A stretch of DNA of 64,000 bases, from positions 1,178,001 through 1,242,000 of the forward strand of contig NC_015559.1 of the NCBI RefSeq assembly GCF_000214215.1. Direction: 5' to 3'. A program made the translations under genes and the position numbers. This document shows, piece after piece, positions 4,237 to 12,211 of this stretch (its first letter is position 1; every line of letters begins with the position of its first letter). This DNA comes from Marinomonas posidonica IVIA-Po-181. GTDB lineage: Bacteria; Pseudomonadota; Gammaproteobacteria; Pseudomonadales; Marinomonadaceae. The notes under the pieces were generated by a model that searched no databases, was not told where the DNA came from, and saw only the letters and a program-made list of their open reading frames with translations.

Positions 4237-4249
4237 GGTGGTACAAAAG

Positions 4250-5299
4250 ATGTCTTGGTTAAAGGAAAAATGGCAAGCTTTAAGAGAGCGTTTGAACTTT
4301 TCTGGCGTCGGAAAAGTGGCAGCGGTTGTTGTATTGGTCTTAGCCGTATTGTTGAGCTTTTTAGGCATGTATTGGAGCAGTGAGCCCGATCAATTTGATG
4401 TGGTGGCCAGTGCCAAAGAACAAGCCGCCGAGCGTGGTTATCTTAACAACAGTAAAAAGCTAGTGGTTGGCTACACCACGGCCAGCACATTACACACTTT
4501 AGTGTCCACCTTGCTAGACAAGCCGGGTGGCTTCATTAGTAATGATTTGATGCCACCGGGATTGTTCATGGACAACATGCCGGCTTGGGAATTTGGGGTG
4601 TTGGTTCAATCTCGTGATCTAGCGCGGGCGTTCCGTAAAGAGTTCAGTCGTTCTCAGTCTCAGTCCACCGAAGATGTGAATTTGAAAATTGCCGAGCCAC
4701 AATTTAACTTTGATACCAGAAGCTGGGCTTTACCATCCAGTGAAAGCGAATACCGTCGTGGTAATCAAGAATTACTGGAATACTTGGACCGTTTGGCGGG
4801 ACAAGGTAATGACAAGGCGAACTTCTATGCTCGCGCTGATAACCTATCGGATTGGTTGTCTGATGTGAGCACGCGTTTGGGCAGCTTGTCTCAGCGTCTA
4901 TCCGCCAGTGTTGCTAACGTACGAGAAAACACCGATCTTGCTGGTGACAGCAGTGCTCGTCAAAGTAATGATTCTGGAGCCTACCAATACGTCAAAACCC
5001 CTTGGTCAAAAGTGGACGATGTATTTTACGAAGCGCGTGGGGCCAGCTGGGCATTGATCCACATATTACGTTCTATCGAAGTGGACTTTGTGTTTACCCT
5101 ACAAGACAAAAACGCCTTGGTTAGCCTGCGCCAAATCATTCGTGAATTGGAAGCGACGCAAGCCAGTATCTGGTCTCCCATTATTTTAAACGGCAGTGGT
5201 TTTGGGGTGTTGGCGAACCATTCTTTGGTGATGGCGTCTTACATCTCTCGCGCCAATACGGCCATCATTGACCTGCGCCGTTTGCTTGAGCAAGGCTAA
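4250..5299 (+). CDS. DUF2333 family inner-membrane protein
   Basis: This is a DUF2333-type protein of about 349 residues whose function is not established. One transmembrane helix near residues 20-40 (VAAVVVLVLAVLLSFLGMYW) is followed by a large soluble, probably periplasmic domain. I prefer the ATG at 4250, because AAGGTGG ends eight bases before it; an in-frame GTG at 4238 has no such site. The gene begins within about 15 bases of the upstream lipoprotein stop, suggesting translational coupling. The family name is from memory of its sequence pattern; a profile search would settle it. Confidence 0.72.
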   Translation: MSWLKEKWQALRERLNFSGVGKVAAVVVLVLAVLLSFLGMYWSSEPDQFDVVASAKEQAAERGYLNNSKKLVVGYTTASTLHTLVSTLLDKPGGFISNDLMPPGLFMDNMPAWEFGVLVQSRDLARAFRKEFSRSQSQSTEDVNLKIAEPQFNFDTRSWALPSSESEYRRGNQELLEYLDRLAGQGNDKANFYARADNLSDWLSDVSTRLGSLSQRLSASVANVRENTDLAGDSSARQSNDSGAYQYVKTPWSKVDDVFYEARGASWALIHILRSIEVDFVFTLQDKNALVSLRQIIRELEATQASIWSPIILNGSGFGVLANHSLVMASYISRANTAIIDLRRLLEQG

Positions 5300-5327: not shown

Positions 5328-5843
5328 GTGGCTTTAAACTGTGTAGTTCGTCACGCTGAGTTTGAAGACGCTTCCGCCATGCTCGATATCTTTCGACAAT
5401 GCGACCCGCATTCGACATTGGCCGATCGCCATCATGACATTAACCTGTTGGACGTCATGGATTGGCTCGAAACCACCACAGATCGACACCCTATTTTTAT
5501 GGCGGAAAGAGATCAGCAAGTCATTGCTTGGTGCTCATTAGAAGCGTTTTACGGTTTACCCGCCTTTGATCAAGCCTGCGAAATCAGCCTGTATGTCCTG
5601 CCACAGTGGCAAGGCCAAGGGGTTGGCAAAGCCTTGCTTGAACACATCATCCAACACCGACAAGAGATTGGTTTTCTGCATCTGGTCGCCTACATCTACG
5701 CGGGCAATGACAACAGCCTGTGCTTCTTTAAAGCTAATGAGTTTGAAACATGGGGCAAACTGCCCAATATTGCTCGCAGTGAAGAGCGGGTTGAGGATGT
5801 TTATCTTTTGGGGCGGGAGTTTGCGGAAGGTCTAGTTGAGTAG
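5328..5843 (+). CDS. GNAT family N-acetyltransferase
   Basis: This 171-residue protein has the GNAT fold, which transfers an acyl group from acyl-CoA to an amine. Motif A is visible as QWQGQGVGKALLEHII near residues 88-103, giving the Q/R-x-x-G-x-G/A pyrophosphate-binding loop. A preceding beta strand (CEISLYVLP) and a C-terminal segment with NxxxxxFF fit the fold. The substrate is unknown; the closest general match is the phosphinothricin/RimI-like branch. Translation starts at GTG 5328 after AAGGAAGG. It may be co-transcribed with the DUF2333 gene (28-base gap). Confidence 0.85.
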   Translation: MALNCVVRHAEFEDASAMLDIFRQCDPHSTLADRHHDINLLDVMDWLETTTDRHPIFMAERDQQVIAWCSLEAFYGLPAFDQACEISLYVLPQWQGQGVGKALLEHIIQHRQEIGFLHLVAYIYAGNDNSLCFFKANEFETWGKLPNIARSEERVEDVYLLGREFAEGLVE

Positions 5844-5849
5844 GTTTTG

Positions 5850-6016
5850 CTTGGCCTGAGAATTTTGGGATTTCCTCTGAATGGCTTTGGTTGGGGAGCA
5901 TTGTTATCTCTGCCCGAGAGGTCTTTTGCTTCCTCGGATTGGCTTTGGTTGAGAAGCATTTTTCCGCTCTGCTGAGCGGGTAACTTTTGCCAAACGCTGC
6001 AAAAGTAACCAAAAAA
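5850..6016. repeat. Imperfect tandem repeat and hairpin, repeat-rich junction
   Basis: Two imperfect copies follow each other. One runs from TTTTGCTTGGCC near 5845 through GAATGGCTTTGGTTGGGGAGCA; the other from TTTTGCTTCCTCGG near 5921 through GATTGGCTTTGGTTGAGAAGCA. A third TTTTGCC begins near 5986 and forms the hairpin ACTTTTGCC-AAACGCT-GCAAAAGT. The hairpin resembles GTTACTTTT...AAAAGTAAC repeats that are dispersed in many proteobacterial genomes (from memory). No gene is supported here. Confidence 0.55.
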
Positions 6017-6028
6017 TCTTTTTCAGAA

Positions 6029-6234
6029 TCATAAGGGCTCATTTCTTTTGGATGTTGCCAATGTTTGCACAGGGTTCTCTATTGTAAGGTGTTGAGCTGT
6101 TTCAATGGTTGGAGAAAGGTCTTCGGTTACTGACTTGGGAAGACCATAAGGTCGCGCAATCAGGATCGCGTCGAACTGACAACAGTAGAGTTGCTGATTA
6201 CCTCTTTTTACGTTTAAAAGCAGTCCGTTGAGAT
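6029..6234 (-). pseudogene. Open reading frame remnant without a start codon
   Basis: On the minus strand about 68 codons are open, ending in a TGA at 6031-6029, with an in-frame TAG just upstream and no ATG, GTG or TTG in the first half. The translation contains QFDAILIARPYGLPKSV and reads like protein rather than random sequence, but I do not recognise it. It may be the tail of a gene whose front was lost when the adjacent cassette region was rearranged, or part of a dispersed repeat. It is not an obvious tyrosine-recombinase C-terminus: no HxLRH..A or GH....T...Y pattern is present. Confidence 0.3.
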
Positions 6235-6259
6235 TGAGTGTCTAAGTTTTACAAAACGG

Positions 6260-6421
6260 TCATTTGAAATACAACTTTAATTTACAATAAAAGTTGTATT
6301 TTGGTGTTTGTAGTGAAGCTAGGTGGTTAAGGTTATTCGATAGATTGTGTTCGCCAAATTGGATTTGAGAGGTGTAATGATCCTGGAAGCGCATAATGTT
6401 AAGAAGCGTATAGGATGGCAT
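6260..6421 (-). CDS. Small ORF (53 aa) downstream of a LexA-like box
   Basis: This tiny ORF begins MPSYTLLNIMRFQDHY and is preceded by a perfect AAGGAG six bases before the ATG at 6421. A LexA-type box lies 32 bases further upstream, so an SOS-controlled transcript is plausible. The product is not hydrophobic and matches no family I know. It sits where an integron integrase gene would begin (leftward, ahead of the cassettes), so it could be the scrambled 5' end of a lost intI, but the sequence does not clearly show this. Its last codons run through a strong hairpin (6266-6301). Confidence 0.35.
   Translation of the reverse strand: MPSYTLLNIMRFQDHYTSQIQFGEHNLSNNLNHLASLQTPKYNFYCKLKLYFK
6266..6301 (-). 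terminator. Hairpin, probable terminator of the leftward small ORF
   Basis: The sequence AAATACAACTTT (6267-6278) and its complement AAAGTTGTATTT form a 12-base stem around a short A/T-rich loop, with T-rich sequence on either side. It could terminate transcription leaving the LexA-box promoter leftward. It overlaps the last codons of the 53-residue ORF, which weakens the case for that ORF or suggests its end is eroded. Confidence 0.5.
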
Positions 6422-6452
6422 CACACACTCCTTGTGTATACTTTTAATAAAG

Positions 6453-6468
6453 CTGTATAAATATACAG
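6453..6468. promoter_or_regulatory. LexA-type SOS box
   Basis: CTGTATAAATATACAG matches the gammaproteobacterial LexA consensus CTGT-N8-ACAG with an all-A/T centre, and the sequence is a near-perfect palindrome. It lies 32 bases upstream of the AAGGAG-ATG at 6421 (minus strand) and about 300 bases before the first cassette gene. In many integrons a LexA box controls intI, which points away from the cassettes; the geometry here is the same although no intI is present. Confidence 0.7.
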
Positions 6469-6594
6469 TTTATTTTTTTGGTTGCCAATTTTTGGCTCGT
6501 TTAGCCTAAAAAATAATCACAGTATTGCGCGTTTGCGCTAGTAGAAAAATAAAAAGTCTTTTAGTATCAATGGATAAGAATATCCGCAGCAAAA

Positions 6595-6755
6595 ATAACA
6601 GGCCGTGGATAAATGTGTAAACGCGCATGCTCGTTTTTCCAGTTTTGGATTTTGTTGATATCTTGATAAAAACTTTTTTTATCAGTTATTTATAAAGGTA
6701 TTGGTAAAGTCTTTGAGTTGTCTAAACGCGCATGCGCACTATTAAAATGTTATAT
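6595..6755 (+). repeat. Candidate degenerate attC or attI site at the left edge of the cassette array
   Basis: The stretch begins with ATAACA (6595-6600) and ends with AATGTTATAT, whose last seven bases (6749-6755) fit the integron core site GTTRRRY. Between them the 13-base direct repeat TAAACGCGCATGC occurs at 6618-6630 and 6723-6735, and the inverse core GCGCGTTT occurs at 6527-6534. Pairing of the two arms is poorer than in the later sites. It could be the last attC of a lost cassette or an attI with integrase-binding direct repeats. Confidence 0.45.
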
Positions 6756-6774
6756 GCTCAGAAGGAAAATAGCA

Positions 6775-7203
6775 TTGATTAGAGAAATGGATATCTCAGA
6801 TTACTCTCAAGTAATTGAATTATGGTCTCAAACAGAAGCCATGTTGTTGCGTGACGCAGATTCTAGAGAGAACATTGGCAAATACTTAGAACGCAACCCA
6901 AACCTCAGCTTTGTTGCTTTAGATGGTGACATTATTGTTGGTGCAATCTTAGTGGGTACAGACGGTCGTCGAGGTTACGTGCAACACTTGGCGGTCGACT
7001 CGATCTGTCGAGGTAAAGGTATTGGTGCCAAACTGATATCATCTGAAGTAGATGCTCTTGAGAAAATGGGTATAGCGAAAACTCATCTGTTTGTAGCCAA
7101 TGAAAACCTTAATGCTCAATCATTCTATGAAAAATTGGGTTGGTTTCCTCGTGATGAAGTGCGGATGTTTTCCTTTAATTCGTCTGACAGTGGTAATGTC
7201 TAG
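6775..7203 (+). CDS. GNAT family N-acetyltransferase (gene cassette 1)
   Basis: This is an acetyl-CoA-dependent acetyltransferase of about 142 residues, most like the RimI/small GNAT group. Motif A is clear as VDSICRGKGIGAKLISS, and the C-terminal NENLNAQSFYEKLGW matches the GNAT motif-B region. The substrate is unknown; GNATs are common integron cassette cargo. I choose TTG 6775 because AGAAGGA lies eight bases before it. The upstream in-frame codons run back through the recombination site and are unlikely to be translated. The gene is AT-rich and is followed within 10 bases by a well-formed attC site. Confidence 0.82.
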   Translation: MIREMDISDYSQVIELWSQTEAMLLRDADSRENIGKYLERNPNLSFVALDGDIIVGAILVGTDGRRGYVQHLAVDSICRGKGIGAKLISSEVDALEKMGIAKTHLFVANENLNAQSFYEKLGWFPRDEVRMFSFNSSDSGNV

Positions 7204-7209
7204 CACGCA

Positions 7210-7305
7210 TATAACAAAGCATTTAAGAGTGATTCGCAACGCTTGGCAGTTTCGCTTCGCTCAAGTATAGCCAAGCGCTGCTCACACCTTAATGCGGCGT
7301 TATAT
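7210..7305 (+). repeat. attC recombination site (integron cassette 1)
   Basis: The outer ends are TAACAAAGCATT and AATGCGGCGTTATAT, with core site GTTATAT at 7299-7305. The arms pair along almost their whole length, including CGCTTGG near 7240 with CCAAGCG at 7271-7277. This is the extended imperfect palindrome with small bulges that is typical of attC. The site starts a few bases after the cassette gene stop, as expected. Confidence 0.88.
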
Positions 7306-7326
7306 TTACCTTAATAGAGGCGTCAA

Positions 7327-8037
7327 TTGGAAGTTGAAACGATAATTTCATACCTTGAAGAACTTGAACATCATCCAAGTGCTCAAATGTTTCGTGGTCA
7401 CGGGAATTCCGAGTGGGAGTTGATTCCATCGATTGCTAGACTTAAACCTAAAGAATTACCAGTTAGGCACTATGACGGTTGGAAAGGCATTGAAAAACAC
7501 TTACTAATGGAGTTTAAAAAGTATGCTTTAAGGCATATTGATAGAGAACCCGCCTCACAAATAGAATGGATGATTCAAGCGCAACATCATGGGGTTCCAA
7601 CAAGGTTATTAGATTGGTCAACAAATCCACTCAAAGCTTTATATTTCGCCATCGAAAATGCTGAGCATGATGATAAAAACGGAAAGGTTTATGTTTTTAC
7701 TCCACAGTCATGGTCACCCAGCCCAGACCTAGTAGATGTAGAATGCAATAAAAGCATCAAAGCATTTCACCCTGTGGTCATAAATGATCGAATTTTAGCG
7801 CAAGAAGGCTGTTTTACTTTATTCCCTCAAAAGGATAATCACAAAAGTTTCGAGCCTCTTGAAGAAGGTTTTGCTCCTCAAGAAGATGTGGTAAACATGG
7901 CTGTTATTATTATTCCCAAAGAGGCTAAAGCCCCTTTAAGAAACCAATTAAGAAAGCTAGGGGTTACAGATATGACTATGTTTCCTGATTTAGATGGAAT
8001 TGCTAAAAAAATCCGACGAGATTTTGGTGTACTGTAA
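7327..8037 (+). CDS. FRG domain-containing protein (gene cassette 2)
   Basis: This 236-residue protein shows the FRG domain signature: the eponymous MFRGHGNSEWELIPSIAR near residues 21-38 and AQHHGVPTRLLDWSTNP near residues 87-103. The biochemical role of FRG domains is unsettled. They occur in phage-defence and mobile contexts and often stand alone in integron cassettes, so a defence or toxin role is possible but is inference. Translation probably starts at TTG 7327, six bases after AGAGG. The stop lies just before the next attC, and there is no partner antitoxin in the cassette. Confidence 0.85.
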   Translation: MEVETIISYLEELEHHPSAQMFRGHGNSEWELIPSIARLKPKELPVRHYDGWKGIEKHLLMEFKKYALRHIDREPASQIEWMIQAQHHGVPTRLLDWSTNPLKALYFAIENAEHDDKNGKVYVFTPQSWSPSPDLVDVECNKSIKAFHPVVINDRILAQEGCFTLFPQKDNHKSFEPLEEGFAPQEDVVNMAVIIIPKEAKAPLRNQLRKLGVTDMTMFPDLDGIAKKIRRDFGVL

Positions 8038-8038
8038 A

Positions 8039-8135
8039 CATAACAAGCTAATTAATAAGGACAAAAAACAGTTGGCTGTTTTCGTTCCTCAACATTTTAG
8101 CCAACAATTTTTTGCCCATTATTAGGGCGTTATGC
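8039..8135 (+). repeat. attC recombination site (integron cassette 2)
   Basis: The left arm starts CATAACAAGCTAATTAATAAGG and the right arm ends CCCATTATTAGGGCGTTATGC, with core site GTTATGC at 8129-8135. Inside, CAGTTGGCTG pairs with TAGCCAAC. The near-complete complementarity and the TAAC/GTTA ends make this a convincing attC of about 97 bases. Confidence 0.88.
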
Positions 8136-8150
8136 AATAAGGAGAAGACG

Positions 8151-8567
8151 GTGCTAAAGCCCGTAATACAGGAAGAACCTACAGGTTGCGGAATTGCGTC
8201 GGTGGCTAATGTTTTGGGCAAAACTTACTCGGAAATGAAGGCCGTAGCGAACGCTATGGATATCTATGCCGAAGATAAATCGCTGTGGTCCGATACCCAA
8301 TATGTTAGGGGGATGCTGTCCAGCGCCGGAGTAGAGACGTCTCCTGATGAAATTCCTTTTGAATCTTGGGGCTGTCTGCCTGATTTGGCACTATTGTCCA
8401 TCAAGCACCATCAGGAAGCTGGTAAAAATTTCTGGCATTGGGTTGTTTTTAAGCGCCAGGAGGGCCAAGAGTTTGTTTTGGATTCAGCGAGTTATCTGCC
8501 ATCCAACATTCGGACGGACTTTGATGAAATGCAGCCCAAGTGGTTTATTGAGGTCATGAATGCATAA
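8151..8567 (+). CDS. C39-like cysteine peptidase-type protein (gene cassette 3)
   Basis: The 138-residue product starts MLKPVIQEEPTGCGIASVAN. It has the order of catalytic elements of C39-type papain-like folds: a Q/E..TGCGIAS cysteine segment (Cys about 13), a histidine in WHWVVF (about 93-98), and an aspartate in VLDSASY just after it. Peptidase activity is not shown; the protein is smaller than ABC-linked C39 peptidases and carries no transporter. GTG 8151 is the likely start, six bases after AAGGAG (8139-8144); upstream in-frame codons fall in the attC. Its TAA stop is part of the next site's TAAC. Confidence 0.65.
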   Translation: MLKPVIQEEPTGCGIASVANVLGKTYSEMKAVANAMDIYAEDKSLWSDTQYVRGMLSSAGVETSPDEIPFESWGCLPDLALLSIKHHQEAGKNFWHWVVFKRQEGQEFVLDSASYLPSNIRTDFDEMQPKWFIEVMNA

Positions 8568-8651
8568 CAAACCGCAGCAGTCGCTCCCGTTGGTCGCTGG
8601 GACCGCCAAAACGCTGCGCTTATTTGTCGGCCCCTGTACGGGGCGTTATAA
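8563..8651 (+). repeat. attC recombination site (integron cassette 3)
   Basis: The ends are CATAACAAACCGCAGC and GGGGCGTTATAAG, with core site GTTATAA at 8645-8651. CGCAGC near 8571 pairs with GCTGCG near 8612, and GGCCCC...GGGGC lies in the right arm. Pairing is less continuous than in the first two sites, but the ends, length (about 89 bases) and position fit attC. Confidence 0.75.
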
Positions 8652-8669
8652 GCCAAAGAGGTGTCCAAG

Positions 8670-9305
8670 TTGCATCATGTAATGTTCGATATTGATGGTA
8701 CATTAGTTGAATCATATGACTTGGACTCAGAGCTTTTTTGTGATTCGGTCAAAGAGGTTACGGGAATTGCCTTAGATGCAGATTGGGGACGCTATCACCA
8801 CGTTACGGATTCAGGGATTCTTCAGGAAGTTTTTGAGATGAATGGAATTCCGAATAAAGAAGAGACTGAGGCCAAAATAAAGCGGATCTTTATTGCGAAA
8901 CTAGAACACTCTATCGCTTCTCAGCCAATTCAAGAAATACCTGGTGCAGAATCTTTTTTGTCGCTTCTTAAATCAATGAGTAATGTAATAATTTCTATTG
9001 CCACTGGGGGCTGGTATGAGAGTGCTGTTTTAAAGCTAAACTCGGCAGGAATAGACATTGATTCTCTAATAATTTCCTCATCGAATGATCACATATCAAG
9101 AACCGAAATAATGAAACATGCAGCGTCTAAAGCCACAAGAGGCAAAAATTATCCATGCACCTATTTTGGTGACGGCATCTGGGATAAAAAAGCTTGTGAA
9201 CAACTTGGTTTTAACTTTGTCCTCGTGGGAAACAAAGTTAAGCATAATCAAAATATTACTTCTTTTAAGTCATCAAACAAGGCTCTTGCATATGTTGGCT
9301 TATAA
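8670..9305 (+). CDS. HAD family hydrolase (gene cassette 4)
   Basis: This is a haloacid dehalogenase superfamily enzyme of about 211 residues, probably a phosphatase. Motif I is MFDIDGTLVES with the nucleophile Asp and the general-acid Asp. Motif II is a Thr in ISIATGGW. Motif IV is YFGDGIWDKKACEQLG. A helical cap follows motif I, as in the phosphoglycolate-phosphatase-like group. The substrate is unknown. TTG 8670 is likely the start, with AAAGAGG eight bases upstream; the GTG at 8661 abuts that site. The stop is embedded in the following attC. Confidence 0.85.
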   Translation: MHHVMFDIDGTLVESYDLDSELFCDSVKEVTGIALDADWGRYHHVTDSGILQEVFEMNGIPNKEETEAKIKRIFIAKLEHSIASQPIQEIPGAESFLSLLKSMSNVIISIATGGWYESAVLKLNSAGIDIDSLIISSSNDHISRTEIMKHAASKATRGKNYPCTYFGDGIWDKKACEQLGFNFVLVGNKVKHNQNITSFKSSNKALAYVGL

Positions 9306-9365
9306 CAAATGTGTCATGTACGCACGCGCTGCGTGCAGGACTCGCCTCATACACAAGCGTTATAT
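9301..9365 (+). repeat. Short attC recombination site (integron cassette 4)
   Basis: The ends are TATAACAAATGTGT and ACACAAGCGTTATAT, core site GTTATAT at 9359-9365. The inner stem GCACGC-GCT-GCGTGC is perfect. At about 65 bases it is much shorter than the other sites of this array, in the size range of compact class-1-type attC sites, so it may derive from a different source. Confidence 0.88.
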
Positions 9366-9380
9366 GTAAAGGGAAGTTCA

Positions 9381-10022
9381 ATGAGATTATTTGGCCGTAC
9401 AACTTCATTTAATGTACAAAAAATTCTTTGGTTACTTGAAGAACTAGATGTTGATTATGAACACATTGAACTTGGCGGTCGTTTTGGCGGGTTAGATACA
9501 GAAGATTTTGTTAAATTAAACCCAATGAAAAAAGTGCCAGTACTAATTGATGGTGATAAATCCATTTGGGAATCACACACAATTTTAAGGTACTTAGTCG
9601 CAAGCTATGGAAATAGTACATGGTATTCTAACTGTCCTTACGAACGATCTTTGTATGAACGGTGGTTAGATTGGTCACAAACTATCTTTCAGCCAGCATT
9701 TATGGGTACTTTTTGGGGGTATTATCGAAAACCTGAAAGTATGCGTGATATGGAAGCGGTAAATAAAGATTTGGAAACTTGCATAAATTGCTTACAGGTT
9801 GTTGAAAAGCAGCTTTATCAAACTGAATATTTGGCAAGTAAATCCATAAGCCTTGCTGATATAGTCGTTGGTGCCGTTATCTATAGGTTAATTTCACAGG
9901 GGCTAACTATAGAGTTACCTGAAAAGGTAGATAGTTGGTACAAGGCTCTAAATACTCGCCCAGGTTATAAAAAATGGGTTATGAGTGACTTTACCGAACT
10001 AAAAGCCCGAGAAGATTTTTAA
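9381..10022 (+). CDS. Glutathione S-transferase family protein (gene cassette 5)
   Basis: This 213-residue GST has an N-terminal thioredoxin-like domain and an all-helical C-terminal domain. Visible hallmarks are the catalytic Ser/Tyr-type loop TTSFNVQKILW (about 7-17), the cis-Pro segment KKVPVLI near residue 50, and the glutathione-contacting ESHTILRYL near residue 62. The ATG at 9381 follows AAAGGGAAG, so it is the likely start. It belongs to a cassette with the downstream PNPOx-fold gene, since no complete attC separates them. The likely role is detoxification or a reductive step; the substrate is unknown. Confidence 0.88.
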   Translation: MRLFGRTTSFNVQKILWLLEELDVDYEHIELGGRFGGLDTEDFVKLNPMKKVPVLIDGDKSIWESHTILRYLVASYGNSTWYSNCPYERSLYERWLDWSQTIFQPAFMGTFWGYYRKPESMRDMEAVNKDLETCINCLQVVEKQLYQTEYLASKSISLADIVVGAVIYRLISQGLTIELPEKVDSWYKALNTRPGYKKWVMSDFTELKAREDF

Positions 10023-10043
10023 TATCACAAACGCATCAACGCG
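10023..10043 (+). repeat. Possible remnant of a lost attC left arm
   Basis: Immediately after the GST stop, TATCACAAACGCATCAACGC differs by one base from the usual attC start TATAACAAACGC. No matching right arm or GTTA core follows before the next gene. This suggests a deleted attC that joined two cassettes into one. Confidence 0.35.
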
Positions 10044-10064
10044 GATTTCGAGGATTGAATTTCT

Positions 10065-10514
10065 ATGCTAACGGAAGAAGTTAAACAATCAATAAAAGAA
10101 AGCGTTTTGTGCTGGCTAGCGACCTCTGATGAAAAAGGAGAGCCAAATTGCTCACCAAAAGAGGTATTTACATACTCAGACAATGACGAACTTGTAATAG
10201 CAGATATTGCGTCACCAAATAGTGTAGCGAATCTAAAAGTAAATCCACACGTATGTGTTAGCTTTATTCACGTTTTTAAACAGAAAGGTTTTAAAATCAA
10301 GGGCCGCGCCAGATATTTCACGCCTCAATGTAAAGAATACCCCAGCCTTTTCAGCTTAGTGGAGCCTGTAGTCGGCAGAACTTTTCCCGTCAAGGGTATT
10401 ATTTTGGTATCAGTGACAAGCTGTAGTCCAATTATTGCACCCGCTTATTACTTGGTCAGTGGTACCACCGAGGAAAGTCAAATAGATTCAGCTAAACAAA
10501 CTTATGGCGTATAA
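10065..10514 (+). CDS. PNPOx-fold (FMN-binding split barrel) family protein, gene cassette 5
   Basis: This 149-residue protein matches the pyridoxamine 5'-phosphate oxidase-like superfamily. The N-terminus LCWLATSDEKGEPNCSPK is the typical first strand pair of the split barrel. Later VSFIHVFKQKGFKIKGRARYF fits the strand lined with flavin-binding residues. Family members bind FMN, F420 or heme; the reaction here is unknown. The ATG at 10065 follows GAGGATT. Its TAA stop overlaps the TAAC end of the next attC. Confidence 0.85.
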   Translation: MLTEEVKQSIKESVLCWLATSDEKGEPNCSPKEVFTYSDNDELVIADIASPNSVANLKVNPHVCVSFIHVFKQKGFKIKGRARYFTPQCKEYPSLFSLVEPVVGRTFPVKGIILVSVTSCSPIIAPAYYLVSGTTEESQIDSAKQTYGV

Positions 10515-10590
10515 CAAACACGATCAAAAATCGTTCCACTTTGTTGCACTGGACCTTCCTATCGGTCGACCTTTTATGTAGGCGTTATGC
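10510..10590 (+). repeat. attC recombination site (integron cassette 5)
   Basis: The ends are TATAACAAACACG and TGTAGGCGTTATGC, with core site GTTATGC at 10584-10590. The arms pair imperfectly around GGTCGACC. The TAAC overlaps the stop of the preceding gene and the core lies just before the next gene's ribosome site, as expected of a cassette boundary. Confidence 0.8.
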
Positions 10591-10625
10591 GTAGCCCAAA
10601 AAAATCAAACAATTTGAAGGAATCA

Positions 10626-10937
10626 ATGTTTATGATTACTTGTTATGTTAGGTATGTAATAGATCCAAAGAAGGTCAAAGAGTTCGAAGAGTACGCGAAA
10701 ATGTGGATTCCACTTGTTGAGAAATTTGGTGGTCAACATAATGGCTACTTTCTGCCATCGGAAGGCGCAAACAATGTAGCTTTGGCGCTTTTTACGTTTG
10801 AAAGTTTGTCAGCTTATGAAGACTATCGCACTAAGTCTCTAAATGATCCTGAGTGTACTAAAGCTTTTGAATTTGCCGATCAAGTGGACTGCATTATTAG
10901 CTATGAGCGTAGCTTTTTTAGACCAGTACTCGGTTAA
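10626..10937 (+). CDS. NIPSNAP family protein (gene cassette 6)
   Basis: About 103 residues form a dimeric alpha-beta barrel-type fold. MITCYVRYVIDPKKVKEFE and the later FTFESLSAYEDYR are typical of NIPSNAP/ABM-like small proteins. The function is unknown; such proteins may be small monooxygenases or ligand-binding proteins. GAAGGA (10616-10621) precedes the ATGs at 10626 and 10632; I use 10626, though 10632 has more usual spacing. Upstream in-frame codons fall in the attC core. It is the last clear cassette gene; beyond it the boundary is degenerate. Confidence 0.75.
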   Translation: MFMITCYVRYVIDPKKVKEFEEYAKMWIPLVEKFGGQHNGYFLPSEGANNVALALFTFESLSAYEDYRTKSLNDPECTKAFEFADQVDCIISYERSFFRPVLG

Positions 10938-11017
10938 ACAAGCTATGCATGAATTAAAGTAAATAATTAGGGTCAGAGTTAAATTAAATTCTAACGGACC
11001 CATGACCCCAAAGTATT
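10934..11017. repeat. Degenerate right boundary of the cassette array with a REP-like palindrome
   Basis: Past the NIPSNAP stop the usual TAAC...GTTA pattern is replaced by TTAAACAAGC on the left and TATTATGCG on the right, resembling a mutated attC. Within it GGGTCAGAGTTAAATT and AATTCTAACGGACCC (10970-11003) form an imperfect palindrome. GGGTCAGAGT...ACCC elements occur as dispersed repeats in several gammaproteobacteria (from memory). The right edge touches the ATG of the next gene. Confidence 0.4.
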
Positions 11018-11362
11018 ATGCGTAAATCCGATAAGAAACTCGATAATCAAATCCGTTTAGCCCTGACTGATGTGTGTGAATCGGCGTTGAAAAGCCTTAA
11101 TGGCTTTGAGTGGTTAACTCACAGTGTGAATTATGATCGCTTTCCGGAGAGTCTGAAGGTGGTGTGTGTGTTTGACACCAATGAGCATCTTGGGGCGTTT
11201 AACGTGTCTCCTTTGAGTCGCCAACTTGAAAGGCAAATTCATGCTGAATTTAACGCTTTAGGGGTTAAGGTTAAGAATATTCAAGGTCATGTGTTTTACG
11301 ATACGGAAGAAAATTGCGAGCAGTTTCATAATGGCAATTGGGCGAGAAGGCTGCAAGGTTAG
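11018..11362 (+). CDS. Conserved hypothetical protein, Fis-family-annotated type
   Basis: The 114-residue product starts MRKSDKKLDNQIRLALTDVC. It resembles a family found in Vibrio, Shewanella and relatives that is often labelled Fis family transcriptional regulator; from sequence alone I see no clear helix-turn-helix. The middle part (EWLTHSVNYDRFPESLKVV) is the conserved core of this type. It has no obvious ribosome site because the cassette boundary ends at its start codon. It probably belongs to the chromosome right of the array. Confidence 0.6.
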   Translation: MRKSDKKLDNQIRLALTDVCESALKSLNGFEWLTHSVNYDRFPESLKVVCVFDTNEHLGAFNVSPLSRQLERQIHAEFNALGVKVKNIQGHVFYDTEENCEQFHNGNWARRLQG

Positions 11363-11572: not shown

Positions 11573-12211
11573 ATGAGATTCGAGTTGGATCATTTCTTTA
11601 TATTGACTGATCAGCCTGAGCAAGCGGGAGATTTGTTGGTGGCGTTTGGTCTGCAAGAAAGTTTTCGCCGGGATCACAAGGGGCAGGGAACCTCGAATCG
11701 TCGTTTTGAGTTTGCTAATGGCATGTTGGAGATCTTGTATCTGCGAGATGTGGAGGAAGCCAGAAATGGCCCAGCTAAGGAGATGTATTTAGCGGAGCGA
11801 GTGGCACAGCCTGAGACGTCACCTTTTGGTGTGGTTCTGACTCGAATCAGTGGGTCGGAATCGGTTAGGCCTTTTAAGGGGTGGTCTTATCAAGCCGATT
11901 ATTTTCCCGCGCCGAATGCGTTCCATGTAGGGGATAATTCAAATCGTCTGCACGAGCCTTTGTGCGTGTATGTGCCTTTTATGGCACCAGTAGAACGCAG
12001 TATAGATGCAAATCCGTTGCGAACCCTTGCTGAAGTGACACTCTTGGTTCCCGCACAAGCCTTCTCTGACACCTTAGATAGCTTGTCATCGGTTGATAGG
12101 TTAAGCGTTGAAAGAGGCGATGAGCATCTCGTCGAAATGACATTAGGCGAGGGAGTGTGTGGGAAATGGAAAGATTTTCACCCTCAATTGCCACTCAAAA
12201 TTCACTGGTAA
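11573..12211 (+). CDS. VOC / glyoxalase-like domain protein
   Basis: This 212-residue protein begins MRFELDHFFILTDQPEQAG, matching the glyoxalase-like fold that places a metal-binding His in the first strand (DHFFI). FEFANGMLEILYLRD supplies the next strand pair with a metal-ligand Glu. Family members are isomerases, dioxygenases or metallothiol transferases, and the reaction here is unknown. The preceding 210 bases (11363-11572) hold no clear gene. It is followed 30 bases later by a GNAT gene. Confidence 0.7.
   Translation: MRFELDHFFILTDQPEQAGDLLVAFGLQESFRRDHKGQGTSNRRFEFANGMLEILYLRDVEEARNGPAKEMYLAERVAQPETSPFGVVLTRISGSESVRPFKGWSYQADYFPAPNAFHVGDNSNRLHEPLCVYVPFMAPVERSIDANPLRTLAEVTLLVPAQAFSDTLDSLSSVDRLSVERGDEHLVEMTLGEGVCGKWKDFHPQLPLKIHW

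Follow-up and report, generated by a model that had tools for sequence, protein, structure and literature searches.

A gene cassette array lacking an integrase gene but headed by attI in Marinomonas posidonica, the probable remnant of a chromosomal integron

The stretch of DNA analyzed here (the window) comprises 64,000 bases, positions 1,178,001–1,242,000 of the single 3,899,940-base contig of Marinomonas posidonica IVIA-Po-181 (G000 in our genome set), and contains an array of five gene cassettes with five attC sites, preceded by an attI region and an 11-codon stub of the integron integrase gene, intI. No integron integrase was detected in this genome. The chromosome has been published as circular and plasmid-free, and the main text of the genome paper mentions none of the terms “integron,” “integrase,” and “recombinase” (PMC3577112).

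The attC sites are apparent already from a simple motif, ATAACAA-N(40–130)-GCGTTAT, which occurs five times on the plus strand of the window (7211–7303, 8040–8133, 8564–8649, 9302–9363, and 10511–10588) and not once on the minus strand; the mean number of occurrences in 100 dinucleotide shuffles of the window was 0.03 (maximum, 1), and there were four in 883 kb from 52 unrelated loci, both strands included. The original prediction, a cassette array without an integrase, had placed these sites correctly to within 1–2 bases and had noted that three of them overlap the preceding stop codon, as they do (stops at 8565–8567, 9303–9305, and 10512–10514). As a stand-in for the attC model of IntegronFinder, a covariance model (R1) was built from 35 sites of intI-linked arrays in ten stretches from other genomes of the genus, with no window sequence included; these sites remained from 66 candidates, 38 of them from the genus, after removal of three of the 38 (a near-duplicate, the longest, and a nested one) and of all 28 from other genera. 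The stems of the training sites covary (score 0.484 compared to 0.118 in shuffles, with none of 500 as high). Within the window, R1 recovered exactly the five sites, and the next match scored 13.1 bits (E = 0.67):

7211–7304, plus strand: attC site 1 (R1, 58.1 bits, E = 7.8e-12)
8040–8134, plus strand: attC site 2 (R1, 63.6 bits, E = 3.5e-13)
8564–8650, plus strand: attC site 3 (R1, 35.5 bits, E = 2.4e-6)
9302–9364, plus strand: attC site 4 (R1, 31.2 bits, E = 2.6e-5)
10511–10589, plus strand: attC site 5 (R1, 26.9 bits, E = 3e-4)

The same model produced no match up to E = 1 in the 52 unrelated loci. Among 28 loci with DUF2333 orthologs (the gene flanking the array, see below) from Marinomonas and one neighboring genus (557 kb), there were eight matches up to E = 0.01, seven of these in loci that also hold attI. 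Site 1 is 92% identical, over 96 bases, to an attC of an intI-bearing array (locus L018). When the sites were folded as single strands, the bottom strand had the lower minimum energy in all five cases, with z-scores of −4.2, −5.4, −2.9, −3.0, and −0.1 for sites 1 to 5, respectively. An Rfam search of the window at gathering cut-offs yielded no match.

The cassettes delimited by these sites, and the gene region that follows them, are:

6750–7299, plus strand: cassette 1, GNAT acetyltransferase (reading frame ends at 7203; cassette start placed at the putative attI crossover)
7300–8129, plus strand: cassette 2, FRG-domain protein (7327–8037; PF08867)
8130–8645, plus strand: cassette 3, the C39-like protein of the original prediction (also present in array D, see below)
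8646–9359, plus strand: cassette 4, HAD hydrolase (8661–9305; PF00702)
9360–10584, plus strand: cassette 5, GST-like protein (ending at 10022) and PNPOx-like protein (10065–10514) (PF02798, PF01243)
10585–10937, plus strand: NIPSNAP gene region, end of the array (PF07978)

Of the labels previously given to this cargo (GNAT, FRG, C39-like, HAD, GST, PNPOx, and NIPSNAP), the C39-like one had no Pfam match at E = 0.01. The R1 search of the window detected no attC between the GST-like and PNPOx-like genes and none after the NIPSNAP gene. The FRG-domain gene matches the candidate phage-defense family PDC-S15 of PADLOC (E = 8.4e-71). By analogy with integrons in general, the cassettes are presumed to be expressed from a promoter within the attI region.

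The predicted lack of a tyrosine recombinase held for the window, and beyond it: the only PF00589 match in the entire genome (22.4 bits, below the cut-off, at 2,068,396) belongs to a distantly Xer-like 415-amino-acid reading frame (L001, 832–2079) that does not match the integron-integrase model. A search of the genome with PRK15417 found nothing at E = 0.001, and the integrase of a relative (genome G012, see below), used as the query in a protein search without a control of its own, had no match up to E = 10; the PF00589 and PRK15417 searches were positive in 14 of 14 control genomes. The region thus contains five attC sites that are significant, and no intI was detected, either within 10 kb of them or elsewhere in the chromosome. 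This is the outcome that the original prediction had given as support, and it corresponds to the definition of a cluster of attC sites lacking an integron integrase, or CALIN (at least two attC and no such integrase detected nearby). Apart from this, no XerC/XerD-like recombinase scored above the cut-off in this genome with PF00589 or TIGR02225 (both positive in 14 of 14 control genomes), the 415-residue distant relative being the only match; TIGR02224 (XerC) was not searched genome-wide.

The reading as an attC cluster without intI is therefore supported, yet incomplete. The flanks had been described as ordinary chromosome; instead, positions 5870–6752 are a platform remnant with repeats that had been overlooked, and includes an attI ending at 6752, a LexA-like box, and a truncated intI. 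In loci of the genus that bear an integrase, the interval separating intI from the first cassette is homologous to 6389–6752 of the window. A profile of eight intI-linked attI copies matches the window with 323.7 bits, whereas in the 883 kb of control DNA it found nothing up to E = 10. The end of attI, AAAATG/TTA (6749/6750), lies immediately 5′ of the first cassette. Of the components of a complete integron, the attI between intI and the first cassette is present, as judged by homology (the profile match to 6752), and the intI gene is not, with 11 codons left at 6421–6389.

5870–6022, unstranded: repeat module M1, recurring beside attI/attC arrays in this genome
6238–6388, unstranded: sequence X, joined directly to the truncated end of intI and common to arrays C, D, and E (see below)
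6389–6421, minus strand: intI remnant, start codon and first 11 codons (MPSYTLLNIMR; MSSSPFLNFIR in the G012 integrase)
6453–6468, unstranded: LexA-like palindromic box CTGTATAAATATACAG upstream of intI, aligned with intI-linked copies
6573–6752, plus strand: attI region, part of the homologous stretch 6389–6752 (profile match; putative crossover G6749/T6750)

Eight further copies of M1 are present in the genome; for seven of these, an attI or attC lies no more than 3 kb away, and the eighth (2,810,507) is near neither. M1 is found also beside intI in G012. The module holds an inverted repeat around GTAACTTTTGCCAAACGCTGCAAAAGTAACC and occurs beside arrays in relatives, too. The possibility that the repeat at 6590–6770 is an unrelated mobile element was dropped, given that its copies sit between intI and the array in integrase-bearing loci.

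Comparison of the orthologous place in relatives relied on the DUF2333 gene, which has orthologs in 36 of the 37 genomes compared. In G012, the DUF2333 ortholog (93% identity) adjoins an ortholog of the flanking GNAT gene (72%) that is followed by a 321-amino-acid integrase (396.7 bits on TIGR02249; cut-off, 265), attI, and seven R1 matches. The nearest relative with a long enough stretch (97%), Marinomonas sp. TW1 (G004), has attI and four attC at this place and no IntI match. Elsewhere in TW1 (L147, contig 23, 2952–3584), an intI cut at about residue 103 and 97% identical to the G012 integrase is accompanied by attI and five attC downstream; this is another platform in mid-decay. The flanking features in the window are:

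4238–5299, plus strand: DUF2333 gene, left flank, orthology anchor (PF10095, 496.7 bits)
5328–5843, plus strand: GNAT acetyltransferase gene, left flank (PF00583, 51.2 bits)
10960–11005, unstranded: repeat resembling repetitive extragenic palindromes (REP-like), right edge of the array; 10960–10989 recurs in other array loci
11018–11362, plus strand: conserved hypothetical gene, right flank (72% identical protein in G012, within the orthologous interval)

Further to the right, a glyoxalase-like gene (11573–12211, below the Pfam cut-off) has matches in 7 of the 37 genomes, its own included. The match in G012 lies on the far side of the integron, such that about 43.5 kb separate the flanking genes in G012 compared to 6.3 kb here.

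The window array is one of several in this genome. In 210 kb from 17 sources that were searched closely, R1 detected 40 attC at E up to 0.01, and the attI profile detected six complete attI copies and three fragments; the attC counts are lower bounds inasmuch as the whole-genome search scored 150 of 1,017 first-look candidates. Complete attI copies without intI head six arrays, namely, A (the window), B (2.51 Mb), C (1.44 Mb), D (1.41 Mb), E (2.31 Mb), and F (1.26 Mb), and one attC stands alone at 1.67 Mb. The junction at which sequence X meets the truncated intI is common to arrays A, C, D, and E, and seemingly also to a copy at 1.169 Mb in G012. Arrays C and D (L039 and L040) are the two copies of a segmental duplication, separated by about 29 kb, and differ by whole cassettes. 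In three loci (L045, L010, and L054), several attI copies lie within one array in the same orientation, each with its own attC downstream. REP-like palindromes are found not only at the right edge of the window array but also at the left borders of attI copies in L010, L046, L047, L049, L053, L054, and L069; a role of REP/TnpAREP in moving attI copies was left as a lead, REP-like sequences being intergenic anyway (PMC8266576).

Across the genus, attI-like matches, some of them short fragments, were found in 23 of the 24 genomes, M. posidonica included (the exception is G009), compared to 1 of 13 genomes outside the genus. A long IntI match is present in 13 of the 24 (in-frame stops interrupt some of these, and a contig end truncates one), and among the 11 genomes without one, 10 retain attI-like matches, which in G015 amount to 45 bases only. 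A contig-end fragment in G014 (L002, contig 133, 2378–3178) scores 629.5 bits on PRK15417, above the cut-off of 435, which sets it apart from the remaining integron integrases of the genus. After removal of same-place duplicates, the fetched stretches contained 42 complete attI copies, of which 39 are followed within 3 kb by attC on the same strand and none by attC on the opposite strand; this is not a genome-wide rate, the stretches having been fetched for holding attI. The 39 include 28 of the 30 copies without intI and 11 of the 12 on the intI side, the latter group counting the TW1 copy with the cut intI. In a tree of 43 attI copies, those from M. posidonica, TW1, and G012 form one group of 20 rows, 18 of them without intI (support 85/97), suggesting that attI copies multiplied within this lineage. 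The tree does not unite the intI-less copies in one lineage (11 label changes, at least 6 forced by well-supported branches); the copies without intI are not clustered beyond shuffles (246 of 500 as low), and the bootstrap had not converged. A guess is that the platforms spread via recombination between M1/attI repeats.

Comparison of these sister arrays yields signs of cassette exchange. Cassette 3 of the window is also the second cassette of array D (L040, 3890–4412), with 522 of 523 bases identical; the identity begins at GCG/TTATGC and stops at the end of attC, and the neighbors differ on both sides. The platforms of A and D are 82% identical and have the same intI truncation, which looks older than the 18% divergence between them because the cut end of intI is the same in both. 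Provided that A and D inherited the truncation from a common ancestor, the cassette moved at a time when both lacked an integrase of their own. The platforms of C and D, both truncated, are 98.8% identical over 497 aligned bases; the first cassettes of the two arrays diverge exactly after the attI crossover (the matching GTTA), and array D contains one cassette more than C, with exact edges. We consider it probable that cassettes were moved, after the loss of intI, by an integrase that acted in trans and is no longer detected in the genome.

Taken as a whole, the region is best explained as a decayed chromosomal integron, now a CALIN with attI kept, a reading to which we assign a probability of about 0.87; in its favor are, among other things, the attI and intI stub upstream of the array and the integrase at the orthologous place in G012. 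Under this scenario, an ancestral integron with intI, its promoter, attI, and cassettes would have resided beside the DUF2333 and GNAT genes, as it does in G012; in the M. posidonica lineage, intI would have been truncated after 11 codons, while the promoter region, attI, and five cassettes remained; several copies of the intI-less platform exist in this genome. An integrase from another locus or from outside might then have acted in trans, inserting cassettes at attI and moving cassettes via folded attC. With no integrase detected today, we infer that the cassettes are immobile at present and behave as ordinary accessory genes, although the arrival of an IntI in the cell, or transfer of the DNA to an IntI-bearing relative, could make them mobile again.

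Several observations weigh against this reading. The attI of the window is closer to that of array B in the same genome (96%) than to the intI-linked copy of G012 (83%), so that the original platform may have been overwritten by conversion between attI copies. With the gene at 11573, matched in 7 of the 37 genomes, as the right flank, no clean empty site emerged. Selection of the R1 training sites by the motif TAACAA...GCGTTA biases the model toward attC of that type, and the fold of attC site 5 is no better than those of its own shuffles. The function of attI is predicted from position and homology, and the spread of the platforms is itself left unexplained by decay of an integron.

With respect to cassette movement, the most viable alternative, albeit an unlikely one, is that nothing has moved since the loss of intI and that the cassette shared by A and D was captured twice from outside, when each array had its own integrase. 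Both the current lack of a detectable integrase and the frequent decay of intI in the genus (the 11 of 24 genomes without a long match) agree with such a frozen array. Yet the shared truncation of A and D seems older than the divergence of their platforms, while the cassette differs at 1 of 523 bases, and the nearly identical, truncated platforms C and D differ by whole cassettes with exact edges. It is less likely still that cassette copies were carried between arrays by homologous recombination or transformation rather than by IntI: attI, M1, and the attC ends do provide homology between arrays, and the segments with C and D are duplicated, but the identity is bounded by the cassette edges, GCG/TTA, with different neighbors on both sides. 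Insertion of the cassettes by an integrase at secondary, attG-type sites, without any former integron, is reported elsewhere and gives arrays lacking intI (PMC12444791; PMC11023631); here it appears highly improbable given the attI and intI stub directly upstream, which would be expected to be absent at an attG insertion point, and the integrase at the orthologous place in G012. Finally, despite the REP-like sequences in the region, we give hardly any credence to the spacer folds being REP elements or terminators, which is at odds with the lack of R1 matches in the unrelated loci, or to the integrase being missed in an assembly gap, considering the single contig and the circular, plasmid-free published chromosome.

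CALINs have been proposed to be degraded integrons (PMC9024848), and the M. posidonica region resembles them in having at least two attC, cassette genes, and no integrase; it differs in retaining attI and an intI stub (attI is not sought by the finder outside class 1) and in being one of several arrays in a genome that shows signs of cassette exchange following the loss of intI. Sedentary chromosomal integrons similarly have a variable chromosomal cassette array preceded by a platform that holds attI and the intI promoter region, but here there is no integrase, and there are several small arrays rather than one large array (PMC11023631). A further parallel is with Xanthomonas, where an ancestral integron locus in the genus, intI loss, and CALINs at other chromosomal loci have been described, along with the statement that CALINs are mobilizable in trans; attI heads the secondary arrays in M. 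posidonica, whereas the available part of the Xanthomonas report describes none at secondary CALINs (PMC12444791). The ΔattI-type gene cassettes also involve attI sequence within arrays, away from intI, but those are mostly short attI pieces that replace attC in integrase-bearing class 1 and 2 integrons, whereas here whole attI regions head separate chromosomal arrays (PMC12901181). No report of attI-headed arrays without integrase or of Marinomonas integrons came up in the literature searched, which was mostly non-subscription, the phrase search for orphan or additional attI being weak. Thus, CALINs are known, and attI-headed satellite arrays look new.

CALINs, of which 2,961 have been reported compared to 2,760 complete integrons (PMC9024848), may be dead integrons, off-target insertions, or working satellites. 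Both decay and service in trans are testable within the single, non-pathogenic genus Marinomonas, because a relative retains the integrase, the stub and attI are legible, and the differences between intI-less sister platforms consist of exact cassettes. The analysis also supplies attI sequences outside class 1, which are poorly described (PMC9024848). We tentatively entertain, at somewhat short of even odds, a distributed integron in which attI-headed arrays without intI multiply and settle at many sites, and one integrase, resident or passing, serves all of them in trans. If so, the integron would be a system spread over multiple sites, satellite platforms among them, and many CALINs may be functional satellites instead of dead remnants.

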